Positions 58,248 to 63,865 of a DNA stretch of 64,000 nt are shown here, piece after piece. Within the stretch, counting starts at the first letter, position 1. Every line of letters starts with the position of its first letter. The DNA is taken from positions 806,001-870,000 of the forward strand of contig NZ_FNQB01000001.1 in the NCBI RefSeq assembly GCF_900107455.1, given 5' to 3'. The notes below the pieces were generated by a model. That model was given only the letters and a program-made list of their open reading frames with translations, did no database searches and had not been told where the DNA came from. Made by a program: the position numbers and the translations under genes. The DNA is from Asanoa ishikariensis (lineage in GTDB: Bacteria; Actinomycetota; Actinomycetes; Mycobacteriales; Micromonosporaceae).

Positions 58248-58274
58248 TCATCGGCTCTGCTCTGCGGATCAGCC
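58242..58274. terminator. Weak terminator hairpin
   Basis: GGCTGATC (58242-58249) and GATCAGCC (58267-58274) pair over 8 bp with a 17-nt loop between the response regulator and the island genes. Confidence 0.4.
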
Positions 58275-58472
58275 CGGCAGGCCGTAGAACGCTCGGATGA
58301 AGGCGTGCTGGTCCGCCAGGGACGTGACCCGGGCGGCTGGTGCTGGATCCAGCAGGTCGACGACGTCGAAGGGCCCTTCGCCGGTCAACACGTAGCCCTC
58401 CCGCCCGCCGGAGAACTGGCGCAGTTGTCCGGACGGCAAGACGTCGGCAGGTTGGCGTCTTCTCCCCAGCAT
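58269..58472 (-). CDS. Short hypothetical or gene remnant
   Basis: 67 aa. The last 40 residues (GYVLTGEGPFDVVDLLDPAPAARVTSLADQHAFIRAFYGLPG-type composition) read like the C-terminal end of a real protein. The first 25 residues and the upstream bases do not, and no Shine-Dalgarno is seen. It may be a broken gene at the island edge. Confidence 0.25.
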   Translation of the reverse strand: MLGRRRQPADVLPSGQLRQFSGGREGYVLTGEGPFDVVDLLDPAPAARVTSLADQHAFIRAFYGLPG

Positions 58473-58540
58473 CGCGTCGCCCGGTAGCGGTGCGGTACGT
58501 CAAAGCCACATGCCAACCACGATGGGTATAGTCCGGCGGC

Positions 58541-59020
58541 ATGAGCCGGGACCTCGCCGAGTCGGCCGCGCTGGTTTCGGCGTCAGCCGTGATGTTCGAC
58601 CAGGACGGCCGATTGCTCGTCGTGAAGGCACGCGGCGAGCGTGAATGGGACATTCCCGGCGGGCATCTAGCCGTGGGCGAGGATCCTGTGGCTGCCTGCG
58701 AGCGGGAGATCCTTGAGGAACTGGGCGTTGCGGCGCGGGTCGAACGCCTCTTAGCTATCGACTGGGCTCCGCTTCCTGACGGCAGAGCAAAGCTGCTCTT
58801 TGTCTTCTCTGCCGAACTGCTGGAGCCGGTCCGTGCGTCACCCAGGGCCCAGGCGGAACTGGAGTCTGCTGAGTACATCGCGCCCAATTCGGCTTTACCG
58901 ATGCTCGCCGAGCGTGTCCGCAAGCGGGTTGCCGCCGCGCTCGACGTGCTTCGCGGAGACGGTTACGCGTTTCTGACGGACGGTAGCATTCCCCGTTACG
59001 CCTCAAGGACGATCCGGTAG
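58541..59020 (+). CDS. Nudix hydrolase
   Basis: 159 aa. The Nudix box is complete (GGHLAVGEDPVAACEREILEELGV is the Gx5Ex7REUxEExGU pattern; key residues G, E, REILEE). It hydrolyses nucleoside diphosphates linked to another group; the substrate is unknown. Codons are less GC-biased than in the core genes. The stop overlaps the convergent GNAT gene by 25 bp. Confidence 0.9.
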   Translation: MSRDLAESAALVSASAVMFDQDGRLLVVKARGEREWDIPGGHLAVGEDPVAACEREILEELGVAARVERLLAIDWAPLPDGRAKLLFVFSAELLEPVRASPRAQAELESAEYIAPNSALPMLAERVRKRVAAALDVLRGDGYAFLTDGSIPRYASRTIR

Positions 59021-59439
59021 ACATTGGTCTCTCTCTTGACGAAGCCGATCTGTTGATAGAGGCGGTTCGCTGCCACTCGCTTGGGCCGCGAGGTCAGATC
59101 GACGTCGCGCCGACGGGCTTGCCGTGCGACGTCGAGACACGATCCGATGATCGCGCGCCCGATGCCGCGCCGACGGTACTCCTCGGCTACGACCACATCC
59201 TCGATAATTGCGCGCCTGCCAGTCAGGACTTCAAACGTCACAAGAATTCCGCAACCCACGATCTCTCCATGATGTCGAGCAACAACGACGGATACGTTCG
59301 GTTGGGAGAAGATGGCTTCCATGTCTTCGTCGCCAGGCGCGTCAGCATCATCGGCGAGTTGACCGAGCAACCGGGCCAACTGTCTGGCGTCCTCGGGACT
59401 CGCGGAACGGAGCAACTCGATGTCATACGAGAGCGCCAC
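58996..59439 (-). CDS. GNAT family N-acetyltransferase
   Basis: 147 aa. GNAT fold with the acetyl-CoA loop EEYRRRGIGRAIIGSCLDVAR and the C-terminal ANRLYQQIGFVKRETNVYRI. GTG 59439 has AGGAG 7 nt upstream. It diverges from the sugar epimerase; TTGACA on the minus strand at 59490-59485 is a candidate -35. The acetyl acceptor is unknown. Confidence 0.9.
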   Translation of the reverse strand: MALSYDIELLRSASPEDARQLARLLGQLADDADAPGDEDMEAIFSQPNVSVVVARHHGEIVGCGILVTFEVLTGRRAIIEDVVVAEEYRRRGIGRAIIGSCLDVARQARRRDVDLTSRPKRVAANRLYQQIGFVKRETNVYRIVLEA

Positions 59440-59491
59440 AGCTCATCTCCTGAATCGCTCATCTGTGTAGGATATGCATATTGATGTCAAA

Positions 59492-59500
59492 TGATATACT
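59492..59500 (+). promoter_or_regulatory. Extended -10 promoter of the epimerase gene (leaderless)
   Basis: TGATATACT is an extended -10 element (TGn-TATACT). The start point would fall at about 59507, the A of the ATG, predicting a leaderless transcript. Confidence 0.65.
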
Positions 59501-59506
59501 GCGAGA

Positions 59507-60421
59507 ATGAGGCGATGCATCGTAACGGGATCGTCAGGTTTTCTCGGACGCCACCTGATTAATCATCTCGCAAAAAGATCCGACTTACAAGTCGTTGGCG
59601 TTGACATTCTGCCTCCCGTTGCAACTGGAACGGAGCATCACCAGGTCGACTTGCTCGATCGGTCGGCCACCAGAGCAGTGTTTAAAGGCGCAGACATGGT
59701 CTGCCATCTCGCGGCCATGGGCGACGTTGTAGCCGCCGAGAAGAACCCTGAGCGCACACTGGAGAGAAACGTCGCTGCGACGCTCAACGTAAGCCGCGAG
59801 GCGGCCGATGCGAATGCGTATCTGATCTATGCGTCGACGTGGGAGGTGTACGGTCAGTCCGCGACGGCCAGCGAATGGGGCGCTGTCGACGAGAGCCGGT
59901 ATTGCCTGCCGACAAACTACTATGCCGCTACCAAACTAAGCGGCGAACACGTCATTAGCGCGACAGCCGCCATCTCCGAACTTCGCTATTCGATCCTTCG
60001 ACTCGGCACCGCGTACGGCCGCGGAATGCGCCCACACACAGCCATCATGTCCTTCCTCGCTGCAGCCTCAACGGGAAAGGACATTGTTATCGCCGGCACG
60101 GGCGGTCAAACGCGTCAGTTCACTCATATAGGCGACATATGCCGAGCCTTTGAACTAGCGTGCGATCACCAACCACGCCGAGCGTTGCTGAACATAGCGG
60201 CACGTCGCTCAGTGTCGATTTCCGAGGTCGCGGGCGTGATCTGCGGTCACTTCGGGGTCAACGCGGTGTCGAGCGCCGGGCGTCACGGCGATCCACCCAA
60301 CGCGGTCGTCGATGTGCAGGCCGCCAAGGTCGCGCTGGGCTGGGAGGCAGCAATGGACTTCGAGTTCGGCTTACGCGAGCTCATCGCGGAACACGCCGTC
60401 ACTGACTCAAGTAGGCCGTGA
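59507..60421 (+). CDS. NAD-dependent epimerase/dehydratase
   Basis: 304 aa. Extended SDR with TGSSGFLGRHLINHLA at the N-terminus, LIYASTWEVYGQS, and NYYAATKLSGEHV, which supplies the YxxxK catalytic pair (Y-A-A-T-K). It acts on a nucleotide sugar. Lower GC (visible AT-rich codons such as AAA, TTT, ATA) than the wall locus suggests transfer. It converges on the glycosyltransferase gene with a 23-bp overlap, so it is part of the same sugar island though on the other strand. Confidence 0.9.
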   Translation: MRRCIVTGSSGFLGRHLINHLAKRSDLQVVGVDILPPVATGTEHHQVDLLDRSATRAVFKGADMVCHLAAMGDVVAAEKNPERTLERNVAATLNVSREAADANAYLIYASTWEVYGQSATASEWGAVDESRYCLPTNYYAATKLSGEHVISATAAISELRYSILRLGTAYGRGMRPHTAIMSFLAAASTGKDIVIAGTGGQTRQFTHIGDICRAFELACDHQPRRALLNIAARRSVSISEVAGVICGHFGVNAVSSAGRHGDPPNAVVDVQAAKVALGWEAAMDFEFGLRELIAEHAVTDSSRP

Positions 60422-61235
60422 GTCGGCAGTTCCCGCTGCAGATATCGCATACAGATACTCCGGCGACCGGCAAAAGCCTTGAGTAGCAAGGAGCTAGCCA
60501 CTCGTACAGACGCCGAATATGCGACGTCAGTCGAGGAAGGAGTCGATCCTCCCACGATGCGGTGCGGTACTTCTCGACCTGTCGCGCCGACGAGCCATCG
60601 TAAATTGCCGGAATGACCACTTGCGCGAAAGAATCGCGCGAGATACCGGACTGTGCCGCACGTACGAGAATCTCGACGGACACATGGGCGTCAAACTTCA
60701 AATGTGGCAGGAGTCGTCTGAGAGTCGGCGCCTTGATACCTACTAGACCACAGGCGGGATCGCTGACATCCCATCCGGTGACCCGCGCGAGCGCTGCCGA
60801 CAGCACGTGCGCCATGAAAACACGGTCCGCCGGGGTCGACCGCTGATCCGCGCGCGAGCTGAATCGCGCGCCGTTGACGATGGTGGCGCCGTTGATCAAG
60901 GCCGCCTCAACTTCGTCCACGCTCCCCGGCGGATGCTGACCATCGCCATCTACGAACACAATCTGCTCGGTCTCATCCGCGAGGAGGCGTTCCAGCCCGT
61001 ACCGGATGGCTCCGTCGCGGCCCAACCGTAGGGCAGTGCTGAGCACCTCGACGTTGTGAGCCCGACCGATAGCCGCTGTCGCATCGTCCGACGCATCGTC
61101 GATGACGACGATCCGGCGAGAGGAAGCTCGATGCAGTTGCGAAAGAAAGCCGACGAGACCATCGGCTTCATTGTTACTGGGTACTAAGACCAGCGTCCGT
61201 GGACGATCGGCCGCGGTATCCGTGGACTCGCTCAT
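60399..61235 (-). CDS. GT2 glycosyltransferase, polyprenol-phosphate type
   Basis: 278 aa. GT-A domain close to dolichol-phosphate mannosyltransferases: LVLVPSNNEADGLVGF, VVIDDASDDATAA, and VFVDGDGQHPPGSVDEV with the DxD metal site. FARITGWDV-like text then reads DPACGLVGIKAPTLRRLL. The usual C-terminal membrane helices are absent; the tail instead has three cysteines (VCDICSGNC). The start overlaps the deacetylase stop by 4 bp. It ends the four-gene operon. Confidence 0.87.
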   Translation of the reverse strand: MSESTDTAADRPRTLVLVPSNNEADGLVGFLSQLHRASSRRIVVIDDASDDATAAIGRAHNVEVLSTALRLGRDGAIRYGLERLLADETEQIVFVDGDGQHPPGSVDEVEAALINGATIVNGARFSSRADQRSTPADRVFMAHVLSAALARVTGWDVSDPACGLVGIKAPTLRRLLPHLKFDAHVSVEILVRAAQSGISRDSFAQVVIPAIYDGSSARQVEKYRTASWEDRLLPRLTSHIRRLYEWLAPCYSRLLPVAGVSVCDICSGNCRLTAYLSQ

Positions 61236-62098
61236 GAGATCGAATCCAGCCGAGCCCGATCGATCTGATCCGTGAGTGCATTCGAGGTGGACACTTCGTC
61301 GACGGACACCCGGTTATGGGCACATGGCCCAACGCGTCCAGGCCGCAGGCGGTCGTCCGCCAGTAAAACGGTGCCGAAGTCGGACGCACGCGCGGGACGC
61401 ATCGGCAACGCTTTGCCGTCCGGCACGGCGAACAGGTCACCCTCATACAGCCCATGTTCGCGCAGCCATCCCTCCGCTAAGCGGACCTGCTCGGTGAACT
61501 CAGCTGCAGACATGATGGCGTAGCTGGCGTGAGTCCATCCGTGGTTGCCTATGTGGACCCCTAAGTCGAGCAACGATTGAAGGTCGTCAAGGGTTGGTGG
61601 CTGCAAATAGGAGGGAATGGCCGGTGCTGGAACGCACAGCGCCTCCGCGGTGTACGCGGCGAACGAAACCCGGTCGTCCTCGTTACGCAATGACAGAAGG
61701 CGTGACTTGACCAAGCGGCGGAAACGCTCCTTTGCCGCACGATCAGCAAGGGGATACACGACACCCTCGAAGCCCACCTGCTGCAGCGAGGTCTGGTCCA
61801 GCGCACAGTTAAGCACCGCGAACGGATAAACTTGTCGCGACTCTATGTTCCAAGGGTTGACGAACAGTGTCACAGCCATGCCGGCGTCCGCGAGCAATCG
61901 AGCGACATTGGCCGCGGCCTCGGTGCTGTCATCGACGGTTATTGCTATGCCCCGCCCCGACACGGCTTCCGCGACATCGACCACCTGAGCACTTATCAGC
62001 TTGAACTGTTGGATTGCCTCCTGTTCGCTCACGAAATTGCGGGAAGTAAAAGACTGCGGATCGGGCGCATTGATCGCACCGTGCAGCGCCAGGATCAA
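61232..62098 (-). CDS. Polysaccharide deacetylase-like protein
   Basis: 288 aa. NodB-like fold: the metal/catalytic motif TFDD appears as TVDDS (D56-D57), and HxxxH as H186-x3-H190 (GNHGWTHASY). It has no signal peptide, so unlike wall deacetylases it would act in the cytoplasm, perhaps on a lipid- or nucleotide-linked sugar made by the neighbours. It overlaps the PP2C-like gene by 4 bp and the glycosyltransferase by 4 bp. Confidence 0.85.
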   Translation of the reverse strand: MILALHGAINAPDPQSFTSRNFVSEQEAIQQFKLISAQVVDVAEAVSGRGIAITVDDSTEAAANVARLLADAGMAVTLFVNPWNIESRQVYPFAVLNCALDQTSLQQVGFEGVVYPLADRAAKERFRRLVKSRLLSLRNEDDRVSFAAYTAEALCVPAPAIPSYLQPPTLDDLQSLLDLGVHIGNHGWTHASYAIMSAAEFTEQVRLAEGWLREHGLYEGDLFAVPDGKALPMRPARASDFGTVLLADDRLRPGRVGPCAHNRVSVDEVSTSNALTDQIDRARLDSIS

Positions 62099-62928
62099 CC
62101 ACGCACCTCGATTCCTATGAAGCTTCGATCGTCGAACGAGGCATTTCCGGGCTTAACGCCTTTGGTGTGGGGTGGCGAGCCGATCATCAGCGGGTCCGCC
62201 TGAATCCGCGCTAAGAGCGCCAACTCGCTCTTTTCCAGGCTCGGGGAAGGATTGGGATAGCCGTCACTCACCAGCGTGAGGCGGCCACAGCCTGGTGGCA
62301 CGGGGAAGACGTCTACCCGGGCACGCGGATCGACAATGCCGTCGAACGCGCCGTAGCCCAAGTTGACGTCGGCGCTGTTTCGGAATACCGCTGCTTTACG
62401 GAGCAACGGCAGAACGAGCTCGCGCCCCAGATCGTTCTCGCGGAGCTTGTCCACGCTGGTGCCCTCGGCGATCAAACATCTCAGGTACGCTGCGCGCGTC
62501 CGAGCGGCGATCTCCTCGTGCGGCGCGTGACGCACGTGAAACTGGTCGTCGATCCCGAACGCGCAGTCGCCGATTCGCCAGACCTCTCGGCGTTGGCAGG
62601 CGAGAATCACCATCGATGCCGCTGGAATCTCATCGCTTGGCAATGAGCCTGCCTGCGAGTTGCGCAGGCGTTCGTCGCGAATCGTCTCGTGCAGCAGCTG
62701 GATCGCTTCGTCCGCTGAGGCATTTTCGGGAAGCGACTGCACAGCCGCAGCAAGCACGTCCGCGATGACTTCGCCGCTGAAAAGCCCTTGTCGTCTGTCT
62801 GAGGTTTTCGGTGTCGACCCGTCGATCACCGCAACGAATGACGGTGTGATCACGACTCGATCTTGACCGCCATCGTCTTCACCGCTAGCGCTGAGACAGT
62901 ACGACTCCAAAACGCGAAAGGTCTGCAC
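62095..62928 (-). CDS. PP2C-like protein phosphatase
   Basis: 277 aa. PP2C pattern: N-terminal SGEDDGGQDRVV, then FVAVIDGST with its metal Asp-Gly, ASMVILACQRREVWRIGDCAFG, LTLVSDGYPNPS, and NASFDDRSFIGIEV with the late Asp pair. The metal-binding aspartates are thus retained. It has no sensor or membrane domain. The start shares one base with the stop of the membrane-anchored protein upstream. In this setting it may reverse a phospho-signal or act on a phospho-metabolite. Confidence 0.82.
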   Translation of the reverse strand: MQTFRVLESYCLSASGEDDGGQDRVVITPSFVAVIDGSTPKTSDRRQGLFSGEVIADVLAAAVQSLPENASADEAIQLLHETIRDERLRNSQAGSLPSDEIPAASMVILACQRREVWRIGDCAFGIDDQFHVRHAPHEEIAARTRAAYLRCLIAEGTSVDKLRENDLGRELVLPLLRKAAVFRNSADVNLGYGAFDGIVDPRARVDVFPVPPGCGRLTLVSDGYPNPSPSLEKSELALLARIQADPLMIGSPPHTKGVKPGNASFDDRSFIGIEVRG

Positions 62929-63632
62929 TAAAGTTCCTTGTAGTAGAGCTCCCGGGGCGGCAGCACGTGTCCGTTGTGGATGTCGCTTTCGACGACGGCG
63001 ATGAAGTCGCCCTTGAACTTCTTACCCAGCGGCCGCACGGACTGGACGAAGTACCGGGCTGCCGCAACGACACCGTACGTGTGCGCACCCGACAACAATA
63101 TTATTGTGCGGGGCTTGGCCGAGTACGGGTTGGTTATCCGAGCCACCACGCCGTGGTCCATGGTCAAAGGTGCGGTGACTTGATCGAGGGGGATGTTGAC
63201 TCCGTTGGGCGCGGTGAGCGACAGGCTGTCGAGCTTGACCTGGCTGCGTGGCTCGAGCCTCTGCAAGATGCGTGCGGCGACCTCGTTGTTCTTCGGGCCA
63301 CCCAGCACGATAACGTCCTGCTCCATCTCCTTGCGGAACTCGTCGGGGAAACACAGGCGTTGCGTGTCGAACTGCGAGTACGCCCGAACGAGCGACGGCG
63401 AGATGACCGCGAGCGCTCTGGCCTGACCGACGCCGGTTGAGGGGCGCTCGTACGCGCCGGTGTTGGTCGTGACGGATTGCGCGATGCAGATGCTCGCGCT
63501 GTACGGGTCCTTCAGCCGCCATCGCCGCCGCTCTGGTACTCGCTGCCGAAGCCTGGTGCCGAACCACGTCAAAACGGCGAGTCCGACGCCGGGTGTCAAT
63601 GCGGTAAGGAGGACCTGCTCGGTTAATCCCAT
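62928..63632 (-). CDS. Membrane-anchored Rossmann-like protein of unknown family
   Basis: 234 aa from ATG 63632, which has AGGAAGG at 9 nt; a longer frame to 63737 lacks support. One N-terminal helix (VLLTALTPGVGLAVLTWFG) anchors a cytoplasmic domain. That domain alternates strands and helices, with conspicuous loops VIVLGGPKNNEVAARIL and TIILLSGAHTYGVVAAARYF. The GGPxxN and SGAHTYG motifs look like nucleotide- or sugar-binding loops. I do not recognise the family. It heads the tightly coupled operon with the PP2C-like gene. Confidence 0.78.
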   Translation of the reverse strand: MGLTEQVLLTALTPGVGLAVLTWFGTRLRQRVPERRRWRLKDPYSASICIAQSVTTNTGAYERPSTGVGQARALAVISPSLVRAYSQFDTQRLCFPDEFRKEMEQDVIVLGGPKNNEVAARILQRLEPRSQVKLDSLSLTAPNGVNIPLDQVTAPLTMDHGVVARITNPYSAKPRTIILLSGAHTYGVVAAARYFVQSVRPLGKKFKGDFIAVVESDIHNGHVLPPRELYYKEL

Positions 63633-63865
63633 TCGCCACGCGCCTTCCTGCGAATCGTTAGCCGGCGGTCGGACGCGGGCCGGGCGGCGACCCGAAAGCA
63701 TATACCTGCGGTTCCGCAATTGATAGGTTGCGCTCACCAGTTTGGGCTATCTGCGAGTTTTGTCGAATGGCGCTTCGAGGGCCGCGCTTTACTCTCCGAA
63801 TTCGCGATCTTAGGATCCCATCCCCCAAGGCACCCGCACTCACGCCTTCTGCCGGCCCCAGGGCC

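Follow-up and report, generated by a model that had tools for sequence, protein, structure and literature searches.

A block of seven genes has been inserted in the chromosome of Asanoa ishikariensis, at a site that is also variable in other strains, within the 64,000-nucleotide stretch analysed here (RefSeq assembly GCF_900107455.1, contig NZ_FNQB01000001.1, positions 806,001 to 870,000 of the forward strand; hereafter the window, in which positions are counted from the first letter). Five of these genes are tightly packed: a minus-strand operon coding for a membrane-anchored alpha/beta (Rossmann-like) protein, to which we give the working name ROSS, a putative PP2C-like phosphatase, a NodB-type deacetylase, and a GT2 glycosyltransferase converges on the gene of an SDR-type nucleotide-sugar epimerase. 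ROSS and PP2C-like genes recur together in other genomes as a two-gene module. Our preferred reading, to which we give somewhat less than an even chance, is that the island came by horizontal transfer and works as a regulated surface-sugar cassette, making a lipid-linked amino sugar under the control of ROSS and the PP2C-like protein.

The island and its insertion site

The island is bounded by the end of a response-regulator gene (58247) and by the stop codon of an alpha-galactosidase gene (63866). Over ~5.6 kb it holds genes for a Nudix hydrolase, a GNAT acetyltransferase, the SDR epimerase, the GT2, the NodB deacetylase, the PP2C-like protein, and ROSS. The island and its last five genes are as follows:

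58248..63865, no strand assigned: acquired island, delimited by low G+C content (GC) and low G+C content at third codon positions (GC3), and by the 4-12 bp overlap of its flanking genes in 3/5 congeners
59507..60421, plus strand: SDR-type nucleotide-sugar epimerase/dehydratase (PF01370, E 2.4e-43), with GSSGFLG at residue 8 and YYAATK at 138
60399..61235, minus strand: GT2 glycosyltransferase, assigned at the level of the family to the polyprenyl-phosphate-sugar type (PF00535, E 2.8e-13), without membrane segment by hydropathy
61232..62098, minus strand: NodB-type deacetylase (PF01522, E 3.2e-12, 46.9 bits for a cut-off of 23.1), with TVDDS at residue 54 and HGWTH at 186
62095..62928, minus strand: putative PP2C-like phosphatase, with D23, D36-G37, D222, and D266-D267 invariant in 11 sequences and relatives that match PF13672
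62928..63632, minus strand: ROSS, with one N-terminal hydrophobic segment (residues 7-25, then arginines) and an alpha/beta domain predicted to be cytoplasmic

A preliminary description of this DNA had noted four minus-strand genes overlapping by 1-4 bp, and both the coordinates and the overlaps are correct: ROSS and PP2C share 1 bp, PP2C and the deacetylase 4 bp, and the deacetylase and the GT2 4 bp. The 23-bp tail-to-tail overlap of the GT2 with the convergent epimerase gene is also as described. Start sites are uncertain: TTG is the first codon of the deacetylase, and a GTG at 63737 would give a longer ROSS.

The same description gave base and codon use as unlike the flanks, which is borne out. 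The GC of positions 59507-63632 is 0.613, versus a mean of 0.713 (standard deviation 0.016, minimum 0.680) for the 109 equally long windows on its left side. GC3 spans 0.669-0.821 over the five genes, and 0.669-0.705 in the epimerase, GT2, deacetylase, and PP2C genes, versus 0.918 in native genes (standard deviation 0.050, lowest 0.639; 51 genes). The foreign block is, however, larger than the five genes to which it had been limited, as composition also assigns to it the Nudix (GC3 0.725) and GNAT (0.682) genes.

The kinase gene of the left flank and the alpha-galactosidase gene of the right flank have homologues in all five other genomes of the genus. In three of these (L186, L187, and L188) the site is empty, the response-regulator and alpha-galactosidase genes overlapping by 4-12 bp; other genes lie between the two in L185, and the region is rearranged in L184. 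Because congeners show an empty site, other genes, or a rearrangement at this place, we conclude that the seven genes were inserted as a block at a variable site. Low-GC open reading frames (0.59 and 0.53) are also found at the same chromosomal site in a congener, near position 16691 of L184 (rearranged) and at L189:1-237. A search for repeats flanking the island, as marks of integration, gave nothing convincing (a 10-bp match only), and a scan for promoters and terminators gave numbers close to chance (1 promoter-like site versus 1.2 expected, and 5 terminator-like sites versus 3.4 expected).

The sugar enzymes and a candidate pathway

The epimerase, the GT2, and the deacetylase all look soluble, having neither signal peptide nor membrane segment by hydropathy. 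Among solved structures, the epimerase comes closest to MoeE5 (6kv9, E 1.8e-25), which we take to be an enzyme of moenomycin. The GT2 matches PF00535, the NCBIfam models of AglJ (2.8e-11) and PpgS (7e-11), both far below cut-off, and, among solved structures, dolichol monophosphate mannose synthase (5mlz, 2.2e-7); because of these matches we place it, by family-level inference, in the polyprenyl-phosphate-sugar type. That it might be PpgS itself was considered and rejected, the score being 41.9 bits for a curated cut-off of 370 bits (NF058614). Plasmid searches with the GT2 returned generic GT2 matches only, none covering 80% of the query. In the deacetylase, the TVDDS and HGWTH motifs, presumably the D-H-H metal triad of NodB, are both kept.

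It had been stated that this gene combination matches no known pathway. This is too strong, since an epimerase, a polyprenol-type GT2, and a NodB deacetylase follow the logic of ArnC/ArnD and of PpgS/NaxD. The Arn pathway comprises an SDR enzyme, a GT2 that loads polyprenyl phosphate, and the removal of an N-acyl group on the cytoplasmic side. These three elements liken the island to ArnA/ArnC/ArnD and to FlmF2/NaxD; in the available part of PMC10927774, NaxD deacetylates undecaprenyl-phosphate-linked N-acetylgalactosamine. The island is unlike both in having an actinobacterial host, in the presence of ROSS and PP2C, and in that no ArnT-like transferase was recognised among its genes. NCBIfam searches with the GT2 and the deacetylase at E <= 1 returned neither an ArnC nor an ArnD model, the presence of an ArnD model in this library being unchecked. 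A second parallel is the decoration of the mycobacterial and corynebacterial envelope with galactosamine (GalN) by an epimerase (Rv3634c/cgp_0391), PpgS, Rv3632, and Rv3779; the available part of PMC9671496 describes the epimerase and PpgS, and calls the deacetylase unidentified. The island resembles this pathway in its epimerase and GT2, to which a NodB-type candidate deacetylase is added here; it differs in the low PpgS score of its GT2 and in that no Rv3779-like gene was recognised in it.

The data themselves give the order of the genes, their acquisition, the families of the proteins, the acidic residues kept in PP2C, and the recurrence of ROSS/PP2C pairs; the steps of the pathway, their substrates, the direction of control, and the surface target we infer as follows. 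The SDR enzyme would make or interconvert a UDP-sugar, most simply an N-acetylhexosamine. On the cytoplasmic face of the membrane the GT2, as its family suggests, would join the sugar to polyprenyl phosphate, and the signal-less NodB enzyme, by analogy with ArnD and NaxD, would strip the N-acetyl group from the same side and leave a lipid-linked amino sugar. Host enzymes encoded outside the island would then flip the amino-sugar lipid and attach the sugar to a cell-surface polymer. ROSS may be a ligand-sensing domain at the membrane, paired with PP2C as a sensor and a phosphatase that would set the activity of the pathway or the state of a phosphorylated partner; a role as control pair is proposed because the ROSS/PP2C pairing recurs. 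The two genes overlap in the window.

The resemblance of the epimerase to MoeE5 and the soluble look of the three enzymes would also suit what is left of a pathway for a soluble sugar or a natural product, acting on free UDP-sugars or on a small glycoside and not on a lipid. We find this very doubtful, as the GT2 matches synthases of lipid-phosphate sugars along with other GT2 enzymes, the operon includes a membrane-bound protein, and no scaffold, exporter, or resistance gene was recognised among the island genes.

ROSS and PP2C-like proteins in other genomes

A profile made from five ROSS sequences was run on 354 genomes of the family and 396 of the phylum, part of the matches being viewed in context. 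It has matches, many of them partial, in at least 99 of the former and in 14 of the latter. The domain is found behind a membrane helix or behind helix-turn-helix (HTH) domains, and the alignment of the family shows a conserved GGPxxN, DxG, NP, and a glycine motif. A GGPxxN followed by an AG...T motif is also what ROSS relatives share with S_layer_C (PF05124), and the ROSS family profile hits the chain of an S-layer protein (9fsa) at E 0.01, the two motifs following each other in the same order. Unlike S_layer_C, ROSS is predicted to be cytoplasmic, behind a membrane helix or HTH, and scores remain below the Pfam cut-off of 23.9 bits: three relatives score 18.6, 16.7, and 14.0 bits, and no match was found for the window ROSS or for four of the seven scanned relatives (the fourth of the first four, and the HTH-type L126, L143, and L069). 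ROSS is part of a large family with a distant likeness to an S-layer outer domain. In four loci (L064, L065, L072, and L127), ROSS overlaps tail to tail, by 104-116 bp, a gene coding for 297-335 aa; the partners in the first three have weak methyltransferase matches below cut-off, that of L127 lying outside the scan.

One class of ROSS, mostly with HTH, is directly followed by a PP2C-like gene in all 18 loci examined (L143-L158, L126, and L132, whose PP2C the gene finder had missed). In one sampled set, 16 of the 19 regions have ROSS and then the PP2C-like gene, which either overlaps ROSS or starts no more than 10 bp after it (38 bp in one case), and three (L159, L160, and L162) have no PP2C. 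An HTH is readable in 16 of the 18 pairs, and none was seen in the open frames of L145 and L149. The longer XRE-ROSS proteins (360-aa class) have no adjoining PP2C in the two loci inspected (L067, gene 5004, and L069, gene 6236), the flanks of the other members being too short to show their neighbours. ROSS and PP2C are thus a recurrent two-gene module. The window is like these pairs in that a PP2C-like gene comes right after the ROSS domain, overlapping it or lying a few base pairs away; the pairs are unlike the window in having an HTH in place of the membrane helix (16/18), a PP2C of another subfamily, and no sugar gene beside ROSS.

That the window gene codes for a PP2C-like protein holds through its relatives and not directly. 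The window protein has no Pfam match at E <= 1; among relatives, L056 (0.017) and L126 (0.0024) match PF13672 below cut-off and L143 (1.5e-6; 28.4 bits for a cut-off of 24) above it. Its invariant residues are, we assume, the metal-site aspartates of the PP2C motifs ED, DG, SDG, and DD(N). Relatives at 30-40% identity come from plasmids recorded under Miltoncostaea, Streptomyces, and Acetoanaerobium, and 12 genomes of the family contain relatives at E 2.4e-57 or better; these plasmid and family-genome proteins form one subfamily. The window-type profile (A4) matches 16 PP2Cs of the pairs at 7.9e-9 to 1.2e-4, and not that of L126. A search of genome contigs with PP2C gave a single weak relative (L007), whose open reading frame has no Pfam family. 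On the Acetoanaerobium plasmid record (L058:6716-8795), the PP2C relative overlaps by 14 bp the gene of a 431-aa protein with membrane segments by eye and no Pfam match at 0.1, possibly another pair of a membrane protein and a PP2C.

ROSS also meets sugar genes. Sixty-four ROSS genes were examined in a non-random sample of loci (63 genes in 61 loci, plus that of L070, added by hand; L068, whose ROSS the gene finder missed, is left out of the count). Besides that of the window, the cassettes with sugar genes are:

L010 and L062: ROSS, NAGidase, and GT2
L011, L060, and L063: ROSS in tail-to-tail arrangement with a GMD-like dehydratase
L073: SDR, ROSS, and DegT aminotransferase
L070: ROSS and GT2, then open reading frames read as a hydrolase and a hexapeptide acyltransferase

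The eight cassettes, window included, are spread over five branches of the ROSS tree, in which the deep forks are weak. Those of L010 (8904-11429) and L062 (9054-11595), in two genera, have a low GC of 0.56-0.62, compared with 0.72 and 0.76 in genes next to them, and their putative NAGidase is GH84-like with no evident signal peptide. A search of the window's own genome for PF07555 gave no match, and neither did its controls.

The remaining two genes of the island are candidates for a link to the operon:

58541..59020, plus strand: Nudix hydrolase (PF00293, E 5e-16; PADLOC PDC-S07, 1.4e-8; GC3 0.725)
58996..59439, minus strand: GNAT acetyltransferase (PF00583, E 7.8e-17; GC3 0.682)

The GNAT (58996-59439) is 47% identical to one whose gene immediately precedes that of a PP2C relative in L118 (8427-9743), and may belong with the window type of PP2C.

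The Nudix match to PDC-S07, a model of candidate defence, bears on the suggestion that the genes are a conflict system, directed against phages or against other elements, in which ROSS and PP2C would be a mobile sensor switch and the sugar enzymes would modify the receptor of a phage or themselves be effectors. Several contexts point the same way. RepSA, DUF2637, and DUF6284 are typical of integrative elements of actinomycetes, and one or another of them lies near the HTH-ROSS/PP2C pair in three of four sampled loci (L144, L147, and L153; not L148). At L125:5800-7507 only 31 bp separate a ROSS relative and an AbiTii gene (PF18864), another relative is found in a viral contig (L121), and the island itself occupies a variable site. 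GalN-type decoration of the envelope also decides infection by one phage: according to the available part of PMC9671496, deleting ppgS or two other glycosyltransferase genes of the GalN system in Corynebacterium glutamicum ended plaquing by phage Cog and not by CL31. A role in conflict is nevertheless not borne out by PADLOC, which matches none of the five genes and none of ten proteins of related loci (eight of them ROSS), the island GNAT reaching 0.022 with BilD. No toxin-like or nuclease gene was recognised among the island genes, and many ROSS with a transmembrane segment sit among unrelated neighbours. The GAP1-N2 GTPase conflict systems, with their kinase-PP2C-vWA linkages, are similar in being actinobacterial operons with a PP2C-family phosphatase (PMC7159879, available part), and dissimilar in that Pfam finds no kinase, GTPase, or vWA among the seven genes. 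We therefore consider a conflict system rather unlikely.

The viral relative of ROSS (L121:5884-6777) was the single one in the viral scans, the others giving none or this one again; in its IMG/VR contig it follows open reading frames that resemble phage tail genes by eye. The next open reading frame was read by eye as a protein kinase, but this was dropped because its sole Pfam match, at 0.011, is irrelevant. Plasmids searched with the window ROSS and its relatives gave no match, nor did phages searched with the L121 ROSS.

Regulated cassette or chance association

Several results weigh against the regulated surface-sugar cassette. Among the enzymes, the GT2 ranks sixth of the 12 matches to the PpgS model in its own genome and, because of this rank and of its 41.9 of 370 bits, neither its sugar nor its acceptor is fixed by that model. 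The deacetylase has, within the limits set for the search, no relative in 149 other genomes of the family (150 scanned), no plasmid match at E 1e-3, and no solved-structure match at E 0.01; as no close relative was found in the data searched, its substrate cannot be drawn from orthology. No flippase or GT-C transferase was identified among the island genes. The AlphaFold2 models of ROSS (pLDDT 41.4) and, from a single sequence, of PP2C (pLDDT 36.7) are of too low confidence for use.

The company that the genes keep elsewhere weighs in the same direction. The preliminary description held that PP2C and Rossmann-like homologues lying mostly apart from the sugar genes would speak against a system, and this is largely what is found. 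Of the places that the window-type PP2C profile hit in 354 and 296 genomes, 13 were retrieved, including L117, whose PP2C was not called by the gene finder; of the 12 examined (L120 being a fragment), one (L109) has an adjoining sugar gene, and no ROSS lies within four called genes of any of them. No sugar-query match is found among the immediate neighbours of ROSS in the 18 pairs, and eight of the 64 ROSS genes are in a cassette with sugar genes. Sugar-query matches amount to 7 of 123 genes adjoining ROSS versus 14 of 967 others (Fisher p 0.006), an enrichment that is inflated because the queries were drawn from ROSS loci and the loci are non-random; 5 of the 14 are second-line members of cassettes (two GT2 and three window genes), which lowers it. 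In the tree, the seven pair ROSS that were included (of 18) form one clade, and the window ROSS lies outside it, with a weakly supported placement. For this reason, the pairing probably either has more than one origin or disappeared in intervening lineages. The histories of ROSS and of the PP2C-like protein are separate. A second copy of the gene set was not seen in the profile-searched genomes, and one conserved five-gene system is rejected on this partial survey of contexts. What stands of the initial interpretation is one acquired, tightly coupled operon that joins sugar enzymes with a membrane protein and a PP2C-like phosphatase.

These counts raise the question of a chance join, in which a free-standing ROSS/PP2C pair came to lie beside a sugar-gene fragment and was fused with it into one transcript. 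The overlaps of 1-4 bp through all four operon genes speak against this, as do the similar composition throughout the PP2C, deacetylase, GT2, and epimerase genes and the fact that ROSS meets sugar genes in five tree branches; in L109 the PP2C relative, moreover, overlaps an SDR epimerase gene by 4 bp. Yet window-type PP2C relatives are mostly alone, the 18 pairs have no sugar gene adjoining ROSS, the exact combination of the window has been seen once, and ROSS itself has a GC3 (0.821) higher than that of its operon partners, which also counts against the cassette. We regard a chance join as unlikely, and continue to prefer the regulated surface-sugar cassette at the tentative strength given above.

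The logic of the enzymes is already known; their coupling to ROSS and PP2C, like the ROSS/PP2C pairs themselves, was not recognised in the literature searched. The recurrent pair is a concrete handle on a phosphatase module, and the soluble NodB enzyme with its polyprenol-type GT2 is a candidate for the GalN deacetylation step called unidentified in the available part of PMC9671496. As a broader suggestion, for which the chances are low, ROSS and PP2C would be an undescribed signalling module of actinobacteria, a ligand sensor on an HTH or a membrane helix with a phosphatase, partly mobile and joined here to a lipid-linked amino-sugar pathway to give a transferable, switchable surface glycan. 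If this is true, the enzymes for a surface sugar and the switch that controls them travel together, so that a regulated change of the envelope would be gained in one transfer of ~5.6 kb, and the switchable glycan could hide or expose phage receptors.

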